Part shown: positions 15,734-64,000 of the stretch, piece by piece
Layout: each line of letters opens with the position of its first letter
How positions within the stretch are numbered: position 1 is the stretch's first letter
Assembly: GCF_010727945.1 (NCBI RefSeq)
Contig: NZ_AP022569.1
Coordinates: 4,278,001 to 4,342,000, forward strand
DNA: 64,000 nucleotides
Reading direction: 5' to 3'
Origin: Mycobacterium cookii
GTDB taxonomy: Bacteria; Actinomycetota; Actinomycetes; Mycobacteriales; Mycobacteriaceae
The notes under the pieces: generated by a model
Database searches by the model: none
Seen by the model: only the letters and a program-made list of their open reading frames with translations
What the model was told of the DNA's origin: nothing
Position numbers and translations under genes: made by a program

Positions 15734-16756
15734 TCAGAAACCGGAGCCGTGCACCTCGTGGCCGGGCGTCTCGGCGGCCAGCCCGCGGTAGGCGTCCTCG
15801 ACGGTGCACCCGTGGTTGATCACGCCGTCGACTTCGCGTGCGATCGGCATATTCAGGCCGTACTTGTCGGCGAACTCCATGATCACGCTGGCCGCCTTCA
15901 CGCCCTCGGCGACCTGGTTCATCGACGAGATGATCTCGTCGATCGGCTTGCCCGCACCGAGCTGCTCACCGACGTGCCGGTTGCGGCTGCGCTGGCTGGT
16001 GCAGGTGACGATCAGATCGCCCAAGCCGGCCAGGCCGTTGAAGGTGTCGCGCTGCCCGCCCATCGCTTCGCCCAGCTTCGACATTTCGCGCACCGAGCGC
16101 GCGATCACCATGGCCCTGGTGTTCTCGCCGATCCCCAGCGAATACCCCATCCCGACGGCGATCGCGTAGACATTCTTCAGCGCTCCGGCCATCTCGACGC
16201 CGAGCACGTCGTCGATGGTGTACACCCGGAATCGCTTGGTGCGGAACAGGTGTGCGAGTTGTGCGGCAAGATGCTGGTCCGGCATCGCCAGCACCGCGGC
16301 GGCCGCATAACCCTCGGCGACCTCGCGGGCGATGTTGGGCCCGGCCAGGATGCCGGCGGGGTGACCGGGCAGCACCTCGTCGACGATCTGCGACATCCGC
16401 ATGTTGGTGCCCTGTTCGAGACCCTTGACCAGCGACACCACCGGAACCCACGGCCGCAGCTCGGACGCCAACTCGGTGAGCACATCGCGGAACCCGTGCG
16501 ACGGCACGCCCATCACGACGACGTCGGCGGCATGCGCGGCCTCGGCGAAGTCCGTCGTGGCGCGCAGGGTTTCGGACAGCTCGACATCCTTGGCCAGGTA
16601 TTTGGTGTTGCGGTGGTTCTCGTTGATGTCCTTGGCGGTCTCCTCCGAGCGCACCCATTGCAGCGTCGGTCCGCGCCGCGCACAGATGGACGCGACGGTG
16701 GTTCCCCAGGAGCCGCCGCCCAGGACGACGACCTTCGGTTCGCGGGTAGCAGCCAT
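15734..16756 (-). CDS. gpsA: Glycerol-3-phosphate dehydrogenase [NAD(P)+]
   Basis: A 340-residue cytoplasmic enzyme that reduces dihydroxyacetone phosphate to sn-glycerol 3-phosphate for phospholipid synthesis. The NAD motif VVVLGGGSWGTTVASI opens the protein; the catalytic Lys lies in MAGALKNVYAIAVG; SLVKGLEQGTNMRMS and AGLGDLIVTCTSQRSRNRHVG are standard GpsA segments. Start ATG 16756; another start three codons upstream is possible. Equivalent to gpdA1 (Rv0564c), and in the same orientation as there. Confidence 0.93.
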   Translation of the reverse strand: MAATREPKVVVLGGGSWGTTVASICARRGPTLQWVRSEETAKDINENHRNTKYLAKDVELSETLRATTDFAEAAHAADVVVMGVPSHGFRDVLTELASELRPWVPVVSLVKGLEQGTNMRMSQIVDEVLPGHPAGILAGPNIAREVAEGYAAAAVLAMPDQHLAAQLAHLFRTKRFRVYTIDDVLGVEMAGALKNVYAIAVGMGYSLGIGENTRAMVIARSVREMSKLGEAMGGQRDTFNGLAGLGDLIVTCTSQRSRNRHVGEQLGAGKPIDEIISSMNQVAEGVKAASVIMEFADKYGLNMPIAREVDGVINHGCTVEDAYRGLAAETPGHEVHGSGF

Positions 16757-16864
16757 GCCGACCACAGTATTGGCTAACGACCTCCGAGGAGGGGACTTCG
16801 TCCTCTACGTCAGTAGACCGCGGTGCCGAATCGTCGAGGGCAGGGTGATCTGTCAGGAGGAGTC

Positions 16865-18259
16865 ATGCATCGGTGGTCGGCATTGCTGTCGACATGTGCG
16901 ATCGCGGTGCTGCTCGAGTCACCGGGCGTCGCGCTCGCCGACGACGGCCGCCCGCAGGCGACACCGACCGAGAAGGCGGCGGCCCTGATCCGGCCCGCGT
17001 TGGTGGAGCTCGACGTCCACGCCGCGGGCCGCGTGCGGCTGCCCAACGGTGACCTTCTGGTATCCGACCCGGCCGCCCCGTTCGAAGTGACCTGGCACTG
17101 CTCTGGTTTCATCGTCAACCCGGACGGGTGGGTGGCCACCGCGGGGCACTGTGCCGATCCCGACTCGGCGAGGTCCGACATCATCAGTGCCGCGACGAGC
17201 GTCTACGTGAGCCGGGCGTTGTATTCGCCCGATGCTCAGGGCCCGCTTCCCACGAGTCAATGGCTGCGCGAAAACGCCCGGATCGAAGGCACGGCGCCCG
17301 ACCAGGTGGGGCCCCAAGTCACGTACACGGTGAACTACGGCAGCGGGACCGACGTGACCACCGCGTCAGCCAGCCTGGCGGACTTCCGGCCGCTGGCCAA
17401 GGGCGACGTCGCGTTGCTCAAGATGGACAAGCATCACCTGCCTTCGTCCGAATTGGCCCCCGACAGCCAGGTCGAGGTCGGCGAGGCGATCGTCGCGGTC
17501 GGCTTCCCTCATGGCACCGACTCGGTCATCGACTCCCCGGCGGAACCGACGAGCAAGAACGGGACGATCAGCCGAAAGGCCACCAAGAAGGGCATCCCCG
17601 AATACGAGATCGACGCCGCCGTCTCCAACGGTATGAGTGGTGGCCCGGTGGCCAACCTCGACGGCAAAGTACTGGGATTGGTCAGCTTCAGCCCAACCCT
17701 CGAACTGCAGCCGTTCAACTTCGTCGCACCCGCCGATCCTTTGGCGGTGCTGATGGCCGCCAAGGGCGTCAAGGCGACTCTGGGCCCGGCCGACTCGGTC
17801 TACCGCCGCGGACTCGACGCGTACTACGCCGGCCGCTACACCGACGCCATCGGTGATTTCGACCAAACCCTGCTGATGTCACCCGGCTATCCCGGGGCCG
17901 CGAAGTTCAGGACCGACGCGGCCAACCTGCGCCAGCAGTTCGGTGACGCATCGTCATTCAATTGGCCGGTGATCTGGTACGCCGCAGGCGGATTCGTGTT
18001 GTTGCTCGGGCTCGGCCTGATCGTGAGCCGCCGCAGGCGCCGCCGGACGCCGGCCGGAGCAATCGACTTGAAAGACTGGGAACCGAGTTACATCATCACC
18101 ACGCTGCCCGACGGATCGGTGGAACCGGCGGCGCTGCCGGCCGCATCGGCCGGGGAGCCGTTTTTCTGTGCGGAGTGCGGCGCGGTCCATCATCACGACG
18201 AACGATTCTGCCCGAACTGCGGCAGCCGAATCGCATTGCTCGAGAACAGAAACGGCTAA
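16865..18259 (+). CDS. Membrane-anchored trypsin-like serine protease with C-terminal zinc ribbon
   Basis: A 464-residue protein. Residues 1-26 are a signal peptide (ending GVALA). The protease domain has His in TAGHCADP, Asp in KGDVALLKMD and Ser in VSNGMSGGPVAN. After it a TPR-like hairpin (YYAGRYTDAIGDFDQTL) precedes one TM span (VIWYAAGGFVLLLGLGLIV) followed by a basic stop-transfer run. The last residues hold two CxxC knuckles, CAECG and CPNCG, a zinc ribbon expected in the cytoplasm. Start ATG 16865 follows a perfect AGGAGG at 16855-16860. It overlaps the convergent monooxygenase by 4 bases. Confidence 0.85.
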   Translation: MHRWSALLSTCAIAVLLESPGVALADDGRPQATPTEKAAALIRPALVELDVHAAGRVRLPNGDLLVSDPAAPFEVTWHCSGFIVNPDGWVATAGHCADPDSARSDIISAATSVYVSRALYSPDAQGPLPTSQWLRENARIEGTAPDQVGPQVTYTVNYGSGTDVTTASASLADFRPLAKGDVALLKMDKHHLPSSELAPDSQVEVGEAIVAVGFPHGTDSVIDSPAEPTSKNGTISRKATKKGIPEYEIDAAVSNGMSGGPVANLDGKVLGLVSFSPTLELQPFNFVAPADPLAVLMAAKGVKATLGPADSVYRRGLDAYYAGRYTDAIGDFDQTLLMSPGYPGAAKFRTDAANLRQQFGDASSFNWPVIWYAAGGFVLLLGLGLIVSRRRRRRTPAGAIDLKDWEPSYIITTLPDGSVEPAALPAASAGEPFFCAECGAVHHHDERFCPNCGSRIALLENRNG

Positions 18260-19728
18260 CCGGCCAGCGCGGACTTCTCCTCGGCGCGGCCGAACACCAT
18301 GGCCTCTTCGACCCGGTCGAACCGGTAGTCGATGGCGTCGGCGAAGTAGTTCTGTCGCACGTTCCACGGCCGCTTGATGCCGGACTTCGGCAGCGCGTGC
18401 GGTGCCCGCAACACGTAGCCGGCCTGGATGTCCCACGCCGGCTTCTCCGGCATCGGCTCACCGCTCAGATGCGGGTAGGCGTGTGTGTAACCGAGAGAGT
18501 TCATGTGCGCCAGCAATTTCGCCGTCGCACGCGCGGTCATATCGGCGCGCAGCGTCCACGAGGCGTTGGTGTAGCCGACGCACCAGAACAAGTTGGGCAC
18601 GTCCTCCAGCATGTGCGCCTTGTAGACGAACCGATCCTGTGGCTTGATCTCGGCGCCGTCGATGGACACCGTCACTCCACCGAGCGCCTGCAACTGCAGA
18701 CCGGTGGCGGTGACGACGATGTCGGCATCCAGATGTCTTCCCGACGTCAGATCGATTCCGGTGGAATCGAAGTGGTCGATGTGGTCGGTGACCACCTCGG
18801 CGCGGCCTTCGCCGATCGCGGTGTACAAGTCGGCGTCGGGGATCAGGCACAGCCGCTGGTCCCACGGGTTGTAGCGCGGCTTGAAATGGGTGTCGACGTC
18901 GTAGCCCTCGGGCAGGTACCGGAGTGCGATCCGGCGGATCCACCACTTCACGAAGCCCGGCGTCTTGCGGGCCAGGAACCAGATCACGCCTTCCATCAGC
19001 GCGTTGCTCTGCCGGGCGAACAGATGAGAAATCCTGCGCGGCAACACCTTACGCACCGCGTTCGTCGGCTTGCTGGTTCTCGCCGCCGAGAACAGGTAGG
19101 TCGGTGAACGCTGCAGCATGGTGACCTTGGCGGCCTTTTCGGCCAGCGACGGGATCAGCGACATTGCCGTGGCGCCGCTGCCGATCACCACCACTTTCTT
19201 GTCGCGGAAGTCGAGGTTGGAGGGCCAGTGCTGCGGATGGACGACGGTGCCGCCGAATTCGTTGAGGCCGGGGAAGTCCGGCGTGTAGCCCTCGTCGTAG
19301 TTGTAGTAGCCGGACCCGAAGAACACGAAGCGGCCGCGGTAGGTCGTCTCGGCACCGTCCCGCTCAGCGGTGACGGTCCAGGTGTCGGTCGAGGAGTCCC
19401 AGTCCGCCGAGCGGACATGGGTGTTGAACTGGATGTGCCGGTCGATGCCGTACTTGCCTGCTGTGGCGCTGAGGTAATCCCGGATGTCCGCCCCGTCGGC
19501 CACCCGCTCCTGTCCGGTCCACGGTTCCCACGGGAAGCACAGCGTGAAGATGCTGCTGTCGGAGCGCACGCCCGGATAGCGGAACAGGTCCCAGGTGCCG
19601 CCGATCTGGTCGCGCCGCTCCAGGATGACGTAGCTGGTGCCCGGATTGCGCTCGGTGATGCGGTAGGCGGCGCCCAGCCCCGAAATGCCTGCCCCGATGA
19701 TCACGACGTCGACGTCGGTCACACTCAT
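18256..19728 (-). CDS. Baeyer-Villiger flavin monooxygenase (Rv0565c-like)
   Basis: A 490-residue class B flavoprotein. FAD motif VIIGAGISGLGAAYR is at the N terminus, the NADPH motif VVVIGSGATAMSL is near residue 190, and between them is the BVMO fingerprint FGGTVVHPQHWP. It would insert oxygen beside a ketone or oxidise sulfur. The M. tuberculosis relatives Rv0565c and EthA are linked to activation of ethionamide-type prodrugs. Start ATG 19728. Length is normal and nothing suggests disruption. Confidence 0.9.
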   Translation of the reverse strand: MSVTDVDVVIIGAGISGLGAAYRITERNPGTSYVILERRDQIGGTWDLFRYPGVRSDSSIFTLCFPWEPWTGQERVADGADIRDYLSATAGKYGIDRHIQFNTHVRSADWDSSTDTWTVTAERDGAETTYRGRFVFFGSGYYNYDEGYTPDFPGLNEFGGTVVHPQHWPSNLDFRDKKVVVIGSGATAMSLIPSLAEKAAKVTMLQRSPTYLFSAARTSKPTNAVRKVLPRRISHLFARQSNALMEGVIWFLARKTPGFVKWWIRRIALRYLPEGYDVDTHFKPRYNPWDQRLCLIPDADLYTAIGEGRAEVVTDHIDHFDSTGIDLTSGRHLDADIVVTATGLQLQALGGVTVSIDGAEIKPQDRFVYKAHMLEDVPNLFWCVGYTNASWTLRADMTARATAKLLAHMNSLGYTHAYPHLSGEPMPEKPAWDIQAGYVLRAPHALPKSGIKRPWNVRQNYFADAIDYRFDRVEEAMVFGRAEEKSALAG

Positions 19729-19791
19729 AACGAACCTCGCTTCTGGGGCGGCAGTGTGTTGCTGATCACCACATTAGGCCCGTGGTCGACA

Positions 19792-20409
19792 TTACGAGGT
19801 CGCGAGTAGGACATCGACGTGCAGTGGTGCGCACAGATCAATGAGCCAGATCTGGTCGGCGGGACTGGCGAAGATGCGCGCGTGCGTCGGGTCTTGAGCG
19901 AACGCGTGAGCGCACTTGTCACCGAAGAACACGTATGCCTTGCTGTTGTTGCACAGCCGCGACATCCACACCATGCCGTCGACGCCGATCCCGTGCGCGG
20001 ACTCGGCCCATGTCACCGTCGTCGAGTAGGTGGAGGCGGGGCTCGAGGTGACGTCTTCGGGAGCGACCTTGAGTCGTCGTAACCCCATGCCGTGCAAGAC
20101 CGCGAGCCGTAGGTCACGGGTGACCTCGAGGCGGGCGAGGGCCTTCGGCGCGTATTGGTCGTAGGGCAGGTTGCCTCCCTCGACCGGGATGTCGTGCAAC
20201 AGCGTCTCGGCGACGGCCGCTTCTTCGGTGTCGGCCGCATACATGATCGGGACTACCGGCTTGCCGAAGAAACCGAACCGCGTTGCGGCGCCGACGCCGG
20301 GGTTGAAGTCAGTGGCTGCGCTGACGTTGGTGAAGACGCGATAGAGCAGGTGCTGTGCGGGCAGGGTCTCGATGTCCGGCGTGAACGGGCTCGGTGGCCC
20401 TTTCACCAC
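19792..20409 (-). CDS. RES-domain toxin
   Basis: A 205-residue RES-domain protein. The family's conserved polar residues can be placed in LLYRVFTNVSAATDFNPG (Arg), EEAAVAETLLHD (Glu) and the late DKCAHAFAQDPTHARIF region. RES toxins such as MbcT of M. tuberculosis break down NAD+. Translation probably starts at GTG 20409, which overlaps the upstream antitoxin stop by 7 bases, so the pair is coupled with the antitoxin first, as in known RES-Xre modules. Confidence 0.85.
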   Translation of the reverse strand: MVKGPPSPFTPDIETLPAQHLLYRVFTNVSAATDFNPGVGAATRFGFFGKPVVPIMYAADTEEAAVAETLLHDIPVEGGNLPYDQYAPKALARLEVTRDLRLAVLHGMGLRRLKVAPEDVTSSPASTYSTTVTWAESAHGIGVDGMVWMSRLCNNSKAYVFFGDKCAHAFAQDPTHARIFASPADQIWLIDLCAPLHVDVLLATS

Positions 20410-58108: not shown

Positions 58109-58663
58109 CTACTCGCAGTTGTCGCACTTTCCAGTCATCGGAAGCACCGTGTAGCACGTCGGGCACAACTTCGGCGGCTCGTCGAGCTTGGCCTGTGCCT
58201 TCTTGTAGTCGTTTGCTGCTTTGGCCTTGGGGGTTAGTGTCGGAACCCCTCCACCCGCCGGAAGATAGGCGCCAAAGTGGCGGTAGCACTCAAGCCTCAT
58301 TTTCGCGGCGTGGTCATCCAACTGGTCGTATTCCATATCAACTACCTCGCCGCGAGCGAGCAGGACGTGTCGGTAGCCATCGCCAACTGTTCCGTCTTCT
58401 TTGACGCATAGGGAACTGAGAGGTGGAATCTCTTCCTTTACACAATGATCAACAACCCGGCCCAGCACACTTCCGATCCAGTTGGTCAGTAGACCGTCGT
58501 GTCTGATTTCCGACTGCTGCTGAACCGCTTCCGCCAACTGTTTGTACGTGACAAAACCGTTGTATTTCTTCGCCGTGTCCAGCAGGAGCGACACGGCCTG
58601 CGGTTCCCAAGCATCGAGCGCGTCGTTCATCGAGACGAAACTGCCGTCTTTGTCGTAAGGCAC
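58109..58663 (-). CDS. Zinc-ribbon protein of unknown function in defence island
   Basis: A 184-residue soluble protein I do not recognise. Residues about 15-60 look like a winged-helix element (AVSLLLDTAKKYNGFVTYKQ, LAEAVQQQSEIRHDG). The C terminus has CPTC and CDNCE, a zinc ribbon. Start is GTG 58663 or ATG 58630. It follows the NERD-helicase gene by 26 bases on the same strand. Base composition is lower in GC than the upstream core genes. Possibly a DNA-binding partner of the helicase; no function is claimed. Confidence 0.6.
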   Translation of the reverse strand: MPYDKDGSFVSMNDALDAWEPQAVSLLLDTAKKYNGFVTYKQLAEAVQQQSEIRHDGLLTNWIGSVLGRVVDHCVKEEIPPLSSLCVKEDGTVGDGYRHVLLARGEVVDMEYDQLDDHAAKMRLECYRHFGAYLPAGGGVPTLTPKAKAANDYKKAQAKLDEPPKLCPTCYTVLPMTGKCDNCE

Positions 58664-58689: not shown

Positions 58690-60359
58690 TCAGTGAACTT
58701 CGAACCCGGCCGCTTCCAGCCGTAGGCGGCGGGCCACATCGGGTCCGGCGACTTCGCGGATGAAGTTCAGGTCACCGCACACGACGAGTTGGTCACGGGC
58801 GCGCGAGAGGCCGACGTAGAGACGTTCGCGCGAGCGCTCGACTGCGGACTTCTCGTTGACGACGAGTACGACTGCGCGGCGCTCGAGTCCCTTGAAGCCG
58901 AGGACGTGGCCATAGAAAACCTGGTCGGCATCCCAGAAGCTGTCCCAGTAGGCGGCGCTGCCCGCTGCCTGCCGTTCCTTCTGCTCCGGGTGACGCGTGC
59001 CCGTCGTAAGCAGGGCAACGTCTTCCGGCCGCCATCCCTGCTCCAATAGCAGCCCGACCTCGTCGTCACCAGCGTTCATCGCCTCGTCTTGTCGACACTC
59101 GACGAACTTGACGGCGGGTCCATCGCCGCCGAGAAGGCGCATGGGTTGATCGACGAGCGGCTGGAACGCCGTCGCGATCTGGCGGGTGTTGCGGAGATTG
59201 TGATCGAGAATCAGTGGCACGAGTGGTACCGGTAGGGACCCGCGGCGGCTGAAAACGCGCTGGCCTTCGTCACTGAAGACATACAGGCCGCCCGTTTCGT
59301 CGTCTTTGAGGCTGCGAGAAGGGGATCCCACCATGCATCAGCGAAGTCCTGGGCTTCGTCGACGATGATCGAGTCGAAACGATAACCTGGTGCGAGTTGC
59401 GTTGCCAGGTCAGCCATTTGGAGCGGCAGGTCATGCTCCCAGAATTGGACCGTCTCGTCAGTGCGCAAGGACTCGTCGGGTCCTACAGGCGCTCCCCATT
59501 GCATGCCCAGCGCGTGATACCCACCGACGTACGCGGGCTTTTGCCGGCGCGGCCATTTGGTCGTGATCCGTTGCAGGTAGGAAGCGAGCCCATGGGAGTA
59601 GCAGACCAGAGCGACCCGCTGGCCGGCGGCGGACAGTCGACGAGCCTGTTCCACGGCGAGAAAGGTCTTGCCGCTCCCCGCCCCGCCGCGGATCTCAACG
59701 CGATTCAGCAATTTGATCGCGCCGAGGATGACGGCTTGATGCTCGGTCAGGGCGTCAGCGGCGTCCTCGCTAGCGAGTGCGCGGGCGACAACATCACGTT
59801 GCGGCAACCCTCTGCCGCTTAATGCTATCGAGAGCTGCTCGATGCCTCGCCTGGTCAGCAGCGGGCGGTCGAGCTCGTGTCGCAGCAATACGCTCTTCAG
59901 GTTCACGACGAGTTTCGAAAGGTCTTCGCGGTCAATCACTTTCCAGCGTGGGCACTCGGGCAGGGCGAATTCGTCGTCGATCTTTGCATTGGGGAAGACC
60001 ACGACGTGGTCCCAACGCAGACGGCCCTGGGTCCAGCGATCGTCGTCTTCGACGAAGGTGCGCAGCGCGTAGCAGGCTTCGCGGGCCTGGCGAACCGGAT
60101 TGATCTCGTGGTCTTGCCCGTGGCGCCTTTGCCACCACGAAGTGCCGTCGTGCCAGACCTCGCCACCTTTGACCTCGAGGCACACGATGCCGGCACTTTC
60201 GATCGCTACGACGAAATCGACCTCGTGGTCCTTGAGGTGGTCCGTCACGCGCTGGCCCGGGATTACCACGTCGTGCGGTTGGAGCTGGTCCCGCAGACTT
60301 TGGTACACCTTGCGCTCGGTGTCATTGGCGAGGCGGGGCGCTTCGTCGGTCGACGTCAC
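58690..60359 (-). pseudogene. NERD-domain UvrD-type helicase, split by a frameshift
   Basis: Two overlapping frames together encode one protein of about 556 residues. Frame 1 (60359 to 59211) has an N-terminal NERD nuclease-like domain (VDFVVAIESAGIVCLEVKGG), Walker A RGGAGSGKTFLAVEQ and Walker B SIIVDEAQDFADAWWDP. Frame 2 (to 58690) resumes with LKDDETGGLYVFSDEGQRVF and includes HVLGFKGLERRAVVLV and RLYVGLSRARDQLVV. The switch is near 59315-59322 and needs a -1 shift; no slippery heptamer is seen. It is a mutation, a sequencing error or recoding. Start GTG 60359. Such helicases occur in defence islands. Confidence 0.82.
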
Positions 60360-60837: not shown

Positions 60838-61728
60838 GTGGGAGTGGATAGTGCGGCCGAACTTCATTTACGCGAACTCATCTTCAGCCAGCTAGCCGAG
60901 CTCGTTTCGGAATATGGCGTTGTCACGCGAAAGCAGCTGGACGCTCTGCAAGTCGGTGGCGAAACCCGTCGCATCATCGACCGCAGTAAAGGCATCTGGA
61001 ATCCCAGGGACCTTCTCGCCACGTTGTCAGTCGTTTCAAGCCCAGACGGCGGATACTCCGACGCCCACGTCGGCGAATCGCTGTTCGCGTATGACTACCA
61101 AAGGGACACGACGGCTGGCGACAACGTGAAGATGCGCAGGGCATTAGAACTGAGACTGCCGATCATCTTGCTTCGCAAGATCAAAGACGGCGTCTACGTT
61201 CCTATCTTTCCTGCTTACGTCATCGCTGACGACGCCGCTAACCACCGCTTCATGATTGCGTTGGACGCGAGCCTCCAGTCAGTAGCTGATCCACTTCATC
61301 TGGAGCCGATCGAGCGCGTCTACGCAGAGCGGGTTATGAAGCAACGCCTGCACCAGCCCGAGTTTCGAGGTCGGGTGATGTATGCCTACGAACAACGCTG
61401 CACCGTATGCACTTTGAAGCATGGCAAGCTTTTGGATGCCGCTCACATCATAGGAGATGCTGAGGTCCATGGCGTTCCTTCAGTCGATAACGGCCTCAGT
61501 CTCTGCAAGATTCACCACGCGGCATACGATGCGAATCTTCTTGGCATCTCACCAGATTATGTCGTGCGTATCAACGGCGAGCTGATGGAGGAGACTGACG
61601 GGCCGATGCTTCTGCACGGACTGCAAGAGATGGACGGACGCGGGCTTACGCTACCCAAGCGGCGAGCAGACAGGCCCTCGAAAGACCGCCTTGCCGAGCG
61701 GTTCGAAATGTTCAAGAACGTGAGTTAA
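60838..61728 (+). CDS. HNH endonuclease
   Basis: A 296-residue protein. The first 60 residues resemble a winged-helix element (LISQ-like AELVSEYGVVTRKQLDALQV). The C-terminal nuclease has Cys pair RCTVCTLKHGKLLDAAHIIG and NGLSLCKIHHAAYDANLLGI, the HNH metal and catalytic core with a zinc-binding Cys frame. This form is common in type II restriction enzymes. Start GTG 60838. It converges on the vsr gene with a 4-base overlap and so probably belongs with the methyltransferase. Confidence 0.83.
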   Translation: MGVDSAAELHLRELIFSQLAELVSEYGVVTRKQLDALQVGGETRRIIDRSKGIWNPRDLLATLSVVSSPDGGYSDAHVGESLFAYDYQRDTTAGDNVKMRRALELRLPIILLRKIKDGVYVPIFPAYVIADDAANHRFMIALDASLQSVADPLHLEPIERVYAERVMKQRLHQPEFRGRVMYAYEQRCTVCTLKHGKLLDAAHIIGDAEVHGVPSVDNGLSLCKIHHAAYDANLLGISPDYVVRINGELMEETDGPMLLHGLQEMDGRGLTLPKRRADRPSKDRLAERFEMFKNVS

Positions 61729-62153
61729 CCGGCTTGCGTCTGCTCGAGCGCCCGTCGGACTTGGGCAACGGCCTCGTCCACCGTTTCGTGTTCCCAGATT
61801 CGAACTACTGTCCAGCCAAGATCGCTCAGCGCGACACTATTTCGCGCATCTCTCTTGACGTTTGCGTCGAGTTTCTCACGCCACCAATCAGCGTTGTTCT
61901 TGGGTGATGTTGCGTGCAGAGGGCAGCCGTGCCAGAAACAGCCGTCGACGAACACAATTACTTTCCGCTTAGTGAACACGAGATCGCCTCGACAGCGCAG
62001 TGACTTTTCGGGGCGGTAGTCGACCCGGTAGCGATAACCCATGCGATGCAGAGCCTTACGTGTTCTGAGCTCGAGCTCGGTGTCCCGTCGGAGCTGCGAC
62101 TGCATCCGCCGACGGATTGAGTCATCCAGAGGTTCAGGCTTTTCGGAAGGCAT
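61725..62153 (-). CDS. vsr: Very short patch repair endonuclease Vsr
   Basis: A 142-residue Vsr endonuclease, which nicks beside T:G mismatches formed when 5-methylcytosine deaminates. The catalytic Asp is in CRGDLVFTKRKVIVFVDG and the zinc/DNA motif is GCFWHGCPLHATSPKNN; TVVRIWEHE closes the domain. It overlaps the 3' end of the methyltransferase by 20 bases, so both are translated from one message. Presence of Vsr supports that the neighbour makes 5mC. Confidence 0.93.
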   Translation of the reverse strand: MPSEKPEPLDDSIRRRMQSQLRRDTELELRTRKALHRMGYRYRVDYRPEKSLRCRGDLVFTKRKVIVFVDGCFWHGCPLHATSPKNNADWWREKLDANVKRDARNSVALSDLGWTVVRIWEHETVDEAVAQVRRALEQTQAG

Positions 62154-63303
62154 CTATATGAGCATCGAGCGCTTGGATGAATCCGGCACGGCTTTGCAGC
62201 CTGCTCGCCTTCAAGCGTGTTGCGAATCCTGTTGTTGCGCCAATACTCAACGGAACCGCCCCGTACTTATCCATGACCGCCGCCAGCGACGCCCTAGGCG
62301 CGATCTTCAGGGGGCGCTCGCTGAGTGTCCAGGCTTCGCGCACTCCTCTCACATTTGCTGCCGCCTTTGGCCAGCTCTTGCGGTCGTCGAAGGACCTTCG
62401 CTCAACGTCTACTGACTTGCCCGGATCGACCAATCTGCTGCCGATCCACTCTGCGACAGGAACGGTCACGGCGTTGCCAACGAGCTTCCATCGCTCGCCT
62501 TCGCGATTTACCGCATCGGTCCACCCGGACGGAAACCCTTGCAACCGCTCACCGGCAGCGATCGAGGGTTTCACGATCGCATCACCAACGCTGCGCTCGT
62601 GAAGCCATACGCCTGGGGGAGAAGCGATTCCGAGCTTCGATCCGCCCTTGAGCGTCGGGGTGACGCCTTCGCCCCATCCGAGTCCTCTGTTGCCTTCGGT
62701 CCAATAGAAGCCGTACGCGCGGTGGATTGGGCGAACTGGAGCTAGCGTGGCGTTATCCGCAAACAAGACGGTTCGAGGGTCCTCAGTGCGTGAAGCGACA
62801 AGGTATGTGCGGCGACGTCGCTGTCTCACTCCAAAGTACTGAGAATCCACCGTTCGGTATGCCCAGTTCCATCGGTGGTCCTCAAGCCATCGAACGATGA
62901 AACGGATTGCCGCTCCCTGGTGTAACGCGAGGAGGTTGGGCACGTTCTCGAGCACGAGCCAGCTCGGTCCGCGCTTGGTGGCGAGTCGGAAAACCTCGCG
63001 GATCAAACCTGACTCAGCCCCATCGATCCCAGCCGTGCGCCCGACCTGACTGAGATCAGTACACGGGAATCCGGCAGTGACGACGTCGCATCTGGGTAGC
63101 GCGGGCAAGTCCCGAATGTCTCCTAGAATGTCTGAGTCAAAACGCCGCTGAAGCACCCGGGCCGCGGGTTCCCAGTTCTCACACATCACATCCGTGGTGA
63201 TTCCAGACTGCGCCAACCCCGCCTCGAAGCCGCCGATGCCTGAGAACAATCCGACCGCGCGCATACAAGAATCCTCGAGCATTTCCGTCGAAACTTCAAT
63301 CAC
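62134..63303 (-). CDS. DNA (cytosine-5) methyltransferase
   Basis: A 389-residue C5 methyltransferase. Motif I is VGLFSGIGGFEAGLAQSG, motif IV VTAGFPCTDLSQVG with the catalytic Cys, motif VI LVLENVPNLL, motif VIII SQYFGVRQRRRRTYLVAS, and the C-terminal ERWKLVGNAVTVPVAEW. The start is placed at GTG 63303 because it overlaps the upstream stop in GTGA; ATG 63282 and ATG 63264 are alternatives. If the neighbour is DrmC, this is the DrmMII-type subunit that marks self DNA. Confidence 0.92.
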   Translation of the reverse strand: MIEVSTEMLEDSCMRAVGLFSGIGGFEAGLAQSGITTDVMCENWEPAARVLQRRFDSDILGDIRDLPALPRCDVVTAGFPCTDLSQVGRTAGIDGAESGLIREVFRLATKRGPSWLVLENVPNLLALHQGAAIRFIVRWLEDHRWNWAYRTVDSQYFGVRQRRRRTYLVASRTEDPRTVLFADNATLAPVRPIHRAYGFYWTEGNRGLGWGEGVTPTLKGGSKLGIASPPGVWLHERSVGDAIVKPSIAAGERLQGFPSGWTDAVNREGERWKLVGNAVTVPVAEWIGSRLVDPGKSVDVERRSFDDRKSWPKAAANVRGVREAWTLSERPLKIAPRASLAAVMDKYGAVPLSIGATTGFATRLKASRLQSRAGFIQALDAHIDAFRKA

Positions 63304-64000
63304 GTCTTGAAGTCGATCAAAATGCCATGCGCGTGAAGGTTTTCGAGATGCTCGCGGATACCCGTGGCGATAAGCGCATCCTGACTGAACATGCCGCACT
63401 CAAGGCTCCGCATCGCCGCCGCAGTCGAGAAGTTTGCACTAGTGACAAACGAGCACCTGTCGTCTACTGCGATCAGCTTGGAGTGCTGAATCGCCCACTG
63501 GCCACCTGCGGGCTCGGCCAACGTCCAAATACGCGCGCCGTCGAGCCTCTGCGCAATCAGCGCGGCGGCATCGGCTCTCTCCTTGACATCAACGACGACA
63601 GTCACGGTGACGCCTCGGTCTAGAGCGTTGCGGAGGGCAGCCAGGTGCGGCGAATCCTTACCTGCCGAATACGTTGCAGCGTGTATGTGCGTGGTTGCAT
63701 CGTTGATCATGTCGAGAGCGGCGAGCGTTGTGTGGCCGGTCGATCCCGGGATAGAGGGCGAAGTCCACACAACTACTGGACGATGAACCTTTGGGACCGC
63801 GGCGATACCGTCGAGTACTGCCGCGACTAGTGCTGCATCGGTGTCGCGAGAGATCAACTGCTTCAGCAATCGTTCGACTTCGGAACGATGGGCGGGGTAA
63901 GCACGTTTGGCCGCAACGTGTGGCATTTTGACCTGACGCAGAGCGGCAGCGATCGACTTGGCTTCTTCGGCGCTGAGGAGCTCACCAAGCCGTGCGATCT
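63300..64000 (-). CDS. Phospholipase D-like protein resembling DrmC (5' end beyond window)
   Basis: The frame is open through the right edge (upstream residues include ARLGELLSAEEAKSIAAAL), so the N terminus is missing. The single PLD active site is the HxK-x4-D segment in WAIQHSKLIAVDDRCSFVTS followed by ANFSTAAAMRSLECGMF. Before it are VVVWTSPSIPGSTGHTTL and ALRNALDRGVTVTVVVDV, the layout of DrmC of DISARM. It is coupled to the methyltransferase by a 4-base overlap. A PLD-type restriction nuclease is the alternative. Confidence 0.75.
   Translation of the reverse strand, partial: IARLGELLSAEEAKSIAAALRQVKMPHVAAKRAYPAHRSEVERLLKQLISRDTDAALVAAVLDGIAAVPKVHRPVVVWTSPSIPGSTGHTTLAALDMINDATTHIHAATYSAGKDSPHLAALRNALDRGVTVTVVVDVKERADAAALIAQRLDGARIWTLAEPAGGQWAIQHSKLIAVDDRCSFVTSANFSTAAAMRSLECGMFSQDALIATGIREHLENLHAHGILIDFKT

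Follow-up and report, generated by a model that had tools for sequence, protein, structure and literature searches.

A predicted class 1 DISARM operon of Mycobacterium cookii with C5-cytosine methyltransferase and vsr genes at its tail

Introduction

The way in which the bacterial anti-phage system DISARM discriminates self from foreign DNA is unsettled and its cutting nuclease is unclear, according to PMC9142583. A locus of Mycobacterium cookii, in which genes for a C5-cytosine methyltransferase and a Vsr endonuclease stand directly behind a DrmC-like gene, raises the question of whether such enzymes belong to the system or only live beside it. The window (the whole stretch of 64,000 nucleotides that was analysed) comprises bases 4278001-4342000 of the 5.32-Mb single-contig genome. 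An earlier note, made from the window alone, had proposed a DISARM-type locus entering from the right edge. The chromosome to the right of position 64000 was fetched, and genes outside the window are given in window coordinates. Literature is mostly cited by PMC number.

Structure of the locus

Judged by gene content, a predicted complete chromosomal class 1 DISARM locus, drmD-drmMI-drmA-drmB-drmC, reaches with its tail into the right end of the window (Table 1). The genes from drmD to vsr overlapped successively by 4, 4, 4, 4, 4 and 20 nt and, being overlapping and co-directional, were read as one transcription unit, so that drmD through vsr probably share a single transcript. The coupling of a DrmC-like gene to a C5-methyltransferase gene and then to vsr, proposed by the earlier note, was borne out by the last two of these overlaps, and the HNH nuclease gene convergent with vsr was also recovered. 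The same note had expected drmA and drmB past position 64000, and both were found within 15 kb to the right, drmB directly after drmC and then drmA. The PLD protein, for which a DrmC layout had been suggested, did not match a stand-alone family best: the top 18 among the 25 PADLOC models listed for it were DrmC models. It was encoded after drmB and carried the HKD motif HSKLIAVD.

Table 1. Genes at the right edge of the window and in its flanks, in window coordinates
Feature	Position	Strand	Match or remark
drmD	73772-77419	-	PADLOC PDLC02625, 1373 bits; outside window
drmMI	69744-73775	-	PADLOC PDLC02643, 1572 bits; outside window
drmA	66076-69747	-	PADLOC PDLC02575, 1173 bits; outside window
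drmB	64010-66079	-	PADLOC PDLC02583, 202 bits; outside window
drmC, PLD-family protein	63300-64013	-	PADLOC PDLC02612, 383 bits; start 13 nt past window end
C5-cytosine DNA methyltransferase, 389 aa	62134-63303	-	PF00145, E 7.8e-43
vsr	61725-62153	-	PF03852, E 6e-17
HNH endonuclease	60838-61728	+	PF13391, E 4e-8; convergent with vsr
RecD-like, UvrD-like and second SNF2 helicases	78137-87675		all on one strand (L005:2137-11675); outside window, upstream of drmD, by recD
NERD-UvrD helicase	58690-60359		split over two frames (two ORFs)
184-aa protein	58109-58663		no Pfam or PADLOC match

DrmA and DrmB were homologous over most of their length to the solved Serratia proteins (7s9v_A, E 5e-223; 7s9v_B, E 2e-124). 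DrmA had the features of a YprA-family SF2 helicase, with the motifs FFPTGGGKTE (Walker), DELH and QASSRVGR, and DrmB, a separate protein of the DUF1998/MZB type, had an MZB match. DrmD was an SNF2-like helicase encoded upstream of drmMI, with the motifs DDVGLGKT (Walker), DEAHH and QRIGRVDR; the Walker motif was read from the translation, and a degenerate DNA pattern for it gave counts at chance level. DrmMI matched Eco57I and MmeI_TRD and contained an NPPF motif, as in MmeI/Eco57I-type methylases with predicted adenine specificity, and one of the two SAM-motif patterns tried on it had no match. Residue 9 of DrmA aligned with residue 136 of Serratia DrmA, which leaves little room for the EVE-like N-terminal domain that class 1 DrmA carries (preprint PMC12458937). 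The class 1 DISARM of Serratia sp. SCBI (7s9v/7s9w; PMC9142583) has homologous DrmA and DrmB and likewise holds both an adenine and a cytosine methyltransferase, but most of the DrmA N-terminal part is missing in M. cookii, where vsr and the HNH gene follow.

Class 2 DISARM is said to have the order drmE-drmABC-drmMII (Ofir et al. 2018). The M. cookii locus resembles it in having drmA, drmB, drmC and a C5-methyltransferase gene in one run. Unlike class 2, it possesses drmD and drmMI, DrmE was absent among the best 25 families listed for the ORFs scanned, and the methyltransferase lies outside the DrmMII families; class 2 was rejected on the presence of drmD and drmMI and on the family of the methyltransferase. 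The assignment to DISARM thus stood, with the class settled as class 1, and a DrmMII identity of the methyltransferase did not: the best PADLOC model was that of a type II methyltransferase (MTase_II PDLC03324, 347.5 bits), whereas the best listed DrmMII model (PDLC02653) scored 68.5 bits.

Flanking genes

The low GC content reported earlier for 58-64 kb was reproduced (0.58-0.62 in 2-kb steps, against 0.63-0.71 leftward), and the long ORFs from there on to ~87.7 kb had a GC content of 0.585-0.600. The recB and recC ORFs had 0.652 and 0.655. An empty site, which would point to a precise insertion beside recD, was not seen, as none of the five left-flank proteins tried was found in 24 genus mates, in stretches of up to 1.5 kb past recD.

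The RecD-like helicase upstream of drmD matched PADLOC PDC-S68 with 1393 bits. The SNF2, UvrD and RecD-like genes were rejected as parts of DISARM and kept as neighbours, since the RecD-like protein occurred in 1 of 395 other genomes (E 1e-60). When six DISARM genomes were searched at E 1e-30, the protein was present in two, Mycobacterium sp. 1245111.1 and Nonomuraea. A Demequina locus (L071) had homologs of the SNF2 and UvrD proteins after DISARM and no RecD-like relative at E 1e-30. Within the window, the NERD-UvrD gene, split in M. cookii, was a single 566-aa ORF in Mycobacterium sp. 1245111.1, and the 184-aa protein had a 35% identical relative near another methyltransferase-Vsr tail (L058:19009-19515).

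The methyltransferase, Vsr and HNH genes

The methyltransferase gene was taken to start at a GTG that overlaps the drmC stop (63303); an alternative ATG lies at 63264 and the ORF opens further up, at 63399. The motifs PC, ENV, QRRR and GNAV were present, and the closest solved relatives were M.HhaI chains, aligned over the N-terminal part. Members of the family were found in 10 of 396 genomes of the phylum, M. cookii included (E 1e-40). In the phylogenetic tree the 17 DISARM-linked members (the M. cookii protein and 16 others) formed one clade, with support of 99/96, apart from the stand-alone members, which fits a single recruitment followed by co-inheritance. The nine other genomes provided 12 loci, of which none had DISARM, one had a weak HNH match and ten had Vsr in the fetched stretch. 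Since relatives of the methyltransferase thus occur with Vsr outside DISARM, the pair could be a module that lives beside it.

The product of vsr aligned with E. coli Vsr (1cw0, E 9e-16) and held a Vsr domain with its active-site residues: counterparts of E25, D51, H69 and D97 were kept, and the H64 position was occupied by Asp, as read from the 1cw0 alignment with the numbering of PMC12907096. According to the same source, Asp at this position occurs in functional Vsr proteins, vsr genes are linked to C5-methyltransferase genes, and Vsr nicks the T:G mismatches that arise from 5mC deamination, in VSP repair. The arrangement is similar to E. coli Dcm-Vsr and to other pairs of C5-methyltransferase and V genes (PMC12907096, PMC10855626) in that vsr overlaps or adjoins the methyltransferase gene, though here Asp replaces His64 and the pair is embedded in a DISARM locus.

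The HNH protein had no PDB relative at E 0.1. Its family is common, being found in 38 of 396 genomes (E 1e-15, M. cookii included) and in 3660 proteins at E 1e-10. We fetched 30 of the 39 match places, one of which was the M. cookii locus itself, and all 29 others lacked a methyltransferase or Vsr gene within about 1.5 kb. The HNH protein is thus probably not the usual cutter of the methyltransferase, and it is the least certain member of the tail. It is a recurrent neighbour of the methyltransferase in one branch of DISARM, described below.

Recurrence of the tail among DISARM loci

A DrmA scan of genome contigs with a five-row alignment confirmed 269 stretches, and the counts given here cover the best 80 of the 269. 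Every stop-to-stop ORF of 80 aa or longer was searched with profiles of the methyltransferase, Vsr and HNH proteins. We defined the branch of M. cookii as the 16 loci (L055-L069 and L115) whose DrmA was at least 64% identical in the best segment. Ten of the 80 loci had less than 2.5 kb after drmC, two in this branch (L057, L069) and eight among the 60 loci outside the branch and its sister group.

Judged by the profile matches, the combination of C5-methyltransferase and Vsr is kept by one DISARM branch across several actinobacterial families. A C5-methyltransferase was present in 14 of the 16 branch loci, 13 times of the same family as the M. cookii enzyme and once (L056) of another. The two in which none was found were L057, whose contig ends 470 bp past drmC, and L060, with neither methyltransferase nor Vsr within 3.4 kb after drmC. 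Vsr was found in 12 of the 16 (not found in L057, L059, L060 and L069, where the contig of the last ends 1.5 kb past drmC) and HNH in 10. The genomes G147 and G187 also bear the methyltransferase/Vsr tail. In the loci that the DrmA tree places as a sister group (L070, L071, L072, L084), the C5-methyltransferase gene was upstream of drmD in all four loci and vsr after drmC in three, on the opposite strand in L084. L059 and L071 had a C5-methyltransferase with no Vsr found. Among the remaining 60 loci, 52 of which had at least 2.5 kb after drmC, the profiles detected no C5-methyltransferase and one Vsr (L114). The addition of vsr and an HNH nuclease, which the earlier note had called unusual, is therefore real but recurrent in related loci.

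The nearest named relative of the island was that of Mycobacterium sp. 1245111.1 (L055), with 89% identity in DrmA, 94% in DrmB and DrmC, 93% in the methyltransferase, 82% in Vsr and 95% in HNH. In that locus drmMI/drmA, drmB/drmC and drmC/methyltransferase each overlapped by 4 nt and methyltransferase/vsr by 32 nt. The order drmC-methyltransferase-vsr with a convergent HNH gene was shared by this locus and three Nocardioides loci. In Geodermatophilaceae loci vsr followed drmC, with the methyltransferase gene convergent and HNH divergent from it, and in G147 vsr again came directly after drmC, convergent with the methyltransferase gene, with HNH upstream of drmD. The L056 methyltransferase, accompanied by Vsr, matched DrmMII PDLC02651 best (292 bits), and those of L071, L072 and L084 matched DruM PDLC00033 (355-363 bits), with Vsr in L072 and L084. 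The family of the methyltransferase thus seems to have been exchanged among loci while Vsr stayed. In L056 (Mycolicibacterium sp. P9-22), positions 16448-20020 hold the other C5-methyltransferase, an uncharacterised protein, a protein judged by eye to be DUF262-like, and vsr, on the strand opposite drmC.

An inverted partial copy of drmMI was observed after drmMI in 7 of the 80 loci (L075, L083, L088, L097, L105, L107, L125), all outside the branch of M. cookii, and also in genome G020 (L043). In L083 and L088 this copy was the MmeI target recognition domain. The longest inverted arms in the four loci tested were 299-570 nt long and 77-95% identical, L105 having a further 190 nt at 97%, and L083 and L107 had a serine recombinase gene before drmA. 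These copies look like an invertible specificity cassette, which would make DISARM methylation phase-variable; our literature search returned no title on this subject.

Plasmid loci and strength of the association

DrmA matched 85 plasmid records, of which we read 21; several of these were DISARM-like only, and one lacked annotation there. By profile, C5-methyltransferase was present in 5 of the 21 and Vsr in 2, both times with C5-methyltransferase. In Microvirga terrae the order was C5-methyltransferase, vsr, drmD, drmMI, two more genes, drmA, drmB and drmC, with vsr overlapping both of its neighbours, and in Deinococcus sp. AJ005 a vsr gene on the opposite strand and a C5-methyltransferase gene came after drmC. 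The other three plasmids with a C5-methyltransferase, from Nocardioides sp. JS614, Tsukamurella and Photobacterium, yielded no Vsr match, and in Photobacterium the methyltransferase gene lies ~9 kb from drmB. The PLSDB annotation of the Microvirga and Deinococcus records names vsr beside DISARM.

The association was examined over 108 loci, a set that excludes the ten loci with less than 2.5 kb after drmC and one plasmid locus (L227) with a DrmA fragment; L045 and L089 are probably one contig, and the upstream flanks of L040-L054 are incomplete. Both genes were present in 20 loci, C5-methyltransferase only in 5, Vsr only in 1 and neither in 82. Vsr thus occurred in 20 of 25 loci with C5-methyltransferase against 1 of 83 without it (Fisher 3.6e-16, kinship ignored). 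Six changes per trait suffice to account for its distribution on the 108-row DrmA tree. In 6 independent pairs differing in C5-methyltransferase, Vsr differed in the same direction in 2.9 on average and never in the opposite one (sign test p 0.25); the statistics thus draw on few independent events. The retention of Vsr with different methyltransferase families, together with the gene overlaps, is the stronger argument.

Proposed roles of the methyltransferase and Vsr

We consider it probable that this is a DISARM system with a second, 5mC self-mark, in which Vsr repairs the deamination that the mark brings about. Host DNA would carry two independent self-marks, one set by DrmMI, of the adenine type, and the other by the C5-methyltransferase. 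The DrmA-DrmB helicase complex would load on the ends of unmodified foreign DNA and, assisted by DrmC and DrmD, either block that DNA or direct its degradation. Vsr would nick the T:G mismatches left by deaminated 5mC, so that the cytosine mark could be kept without mutation of the host. DrmAB is reported to load on 5′-overhang DNA, with lower ATPase activity on 5mC-containing DNA, and DrmC is reported to be dispensable (PMC9142583).

Alternatively, the methyltransferase, Vsr and HNH could share a defence island with DISARM without being functionally tied to it. They would then be a self-contained module of restriction-modification or solitary methylation, in which HNH does the cutting. V genes are parts of some m5C restriction-modification systems (PMC10855626), the methyltransferase-Vsr pairs of the same family in 10 of the 12 loci without DISARM fit this explanation, as does the commonness of the HNH family, and the methyltransferase and HNH genes shift in place and orientation among loci. 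However, the methyltransferase gene overlaps drmC co-directionally in both the window and L055, the DISARM-linked methyltransferases form a clade of their own, vsr overlaps drmD in Microvirga, and the 29 other HNH loci fetched lack such neighbours within about 1.5 kb. We regard a module of this kind as possible but rather unlikely.

A role as guard would have Vsr make loss of the methyltransferase costly and so stabilise the locus, like VsrA of Caulobacter, where loss of a solitary C5-methyltransferase leads to a VsrA-dependent SOS response (PMC12907096). The Vsr of the window shares with VsrA the Asp at the H64 position. In sequence a guard and a plain repair enzyme look alike, and the two roles are compatible; we think the guard role unlikely.

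That Vsr is the DNA-cutting effector of DISARM, in place of a dispensable DrmC, is improbable: a Vsr-type nuclease domain, predicted to be active, is part of ARMADA helicases (PMC12458937), type III-B CoCoNuTs have a Vsr-like effector fused to a helicase (PMC11090510) and drmC is immediately followed by vsr in G147 and the Geodermatophilaceae loci, but Vsr is nearly confined, among the 108 loci, to those with a C5-methyltransferase, accompanies that enzyme also where DISARM is absent, and here stands beside a DrmC with its HKD motif. ARMADA shares with the M. cookii locus a YprA-family helicase, an SNF2-type helicase, a PglX-like methyltransferase and a Vsr-type nuclease (PMC12458937). Unlike ARMADA, where Vsr is fused to the helicase, the locus has split DrmA and DrmB and a separate small Vsr beside a C5-methyltransferase.

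Our literature search mostly covered papers available without subscription. In the accessible parts of PMC12458937, PMC11090510, PMC10855626 and PMC10740426, Vsr forms part of ARMADA, Druantia or CoCoNuT helicases, is the V element of restriction-modification systems or figures under VSP repair in a genome list, and is nowhere described as encoded within a DISARM operon. The presence of vsr beside DISARM has already been annotated in PLSDB though, as far as we searched, it has not been discussed.

A reading of two self-marks with Vsr as repair enzyme could be extended: class 1 DISARM may repeatedly have gained an exchangeable C5-methyltransferase/Vsr cassette, in which Vsr both guards the second self-mark from mutation and punishes its loss. 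We put this forward as a doubtful conjecture. If it were true, DISARM would enforce its own methylation, and Vsr would be a true DISARM component and not a passenger. That a branch of DISARM usually pairs a cytosine mark with its repair enzyme points to a 5mC mark that is both used and costly, and the methyltransferase/vsr pairing may offer a natural, testable system for the study of DISARM self-recognition.
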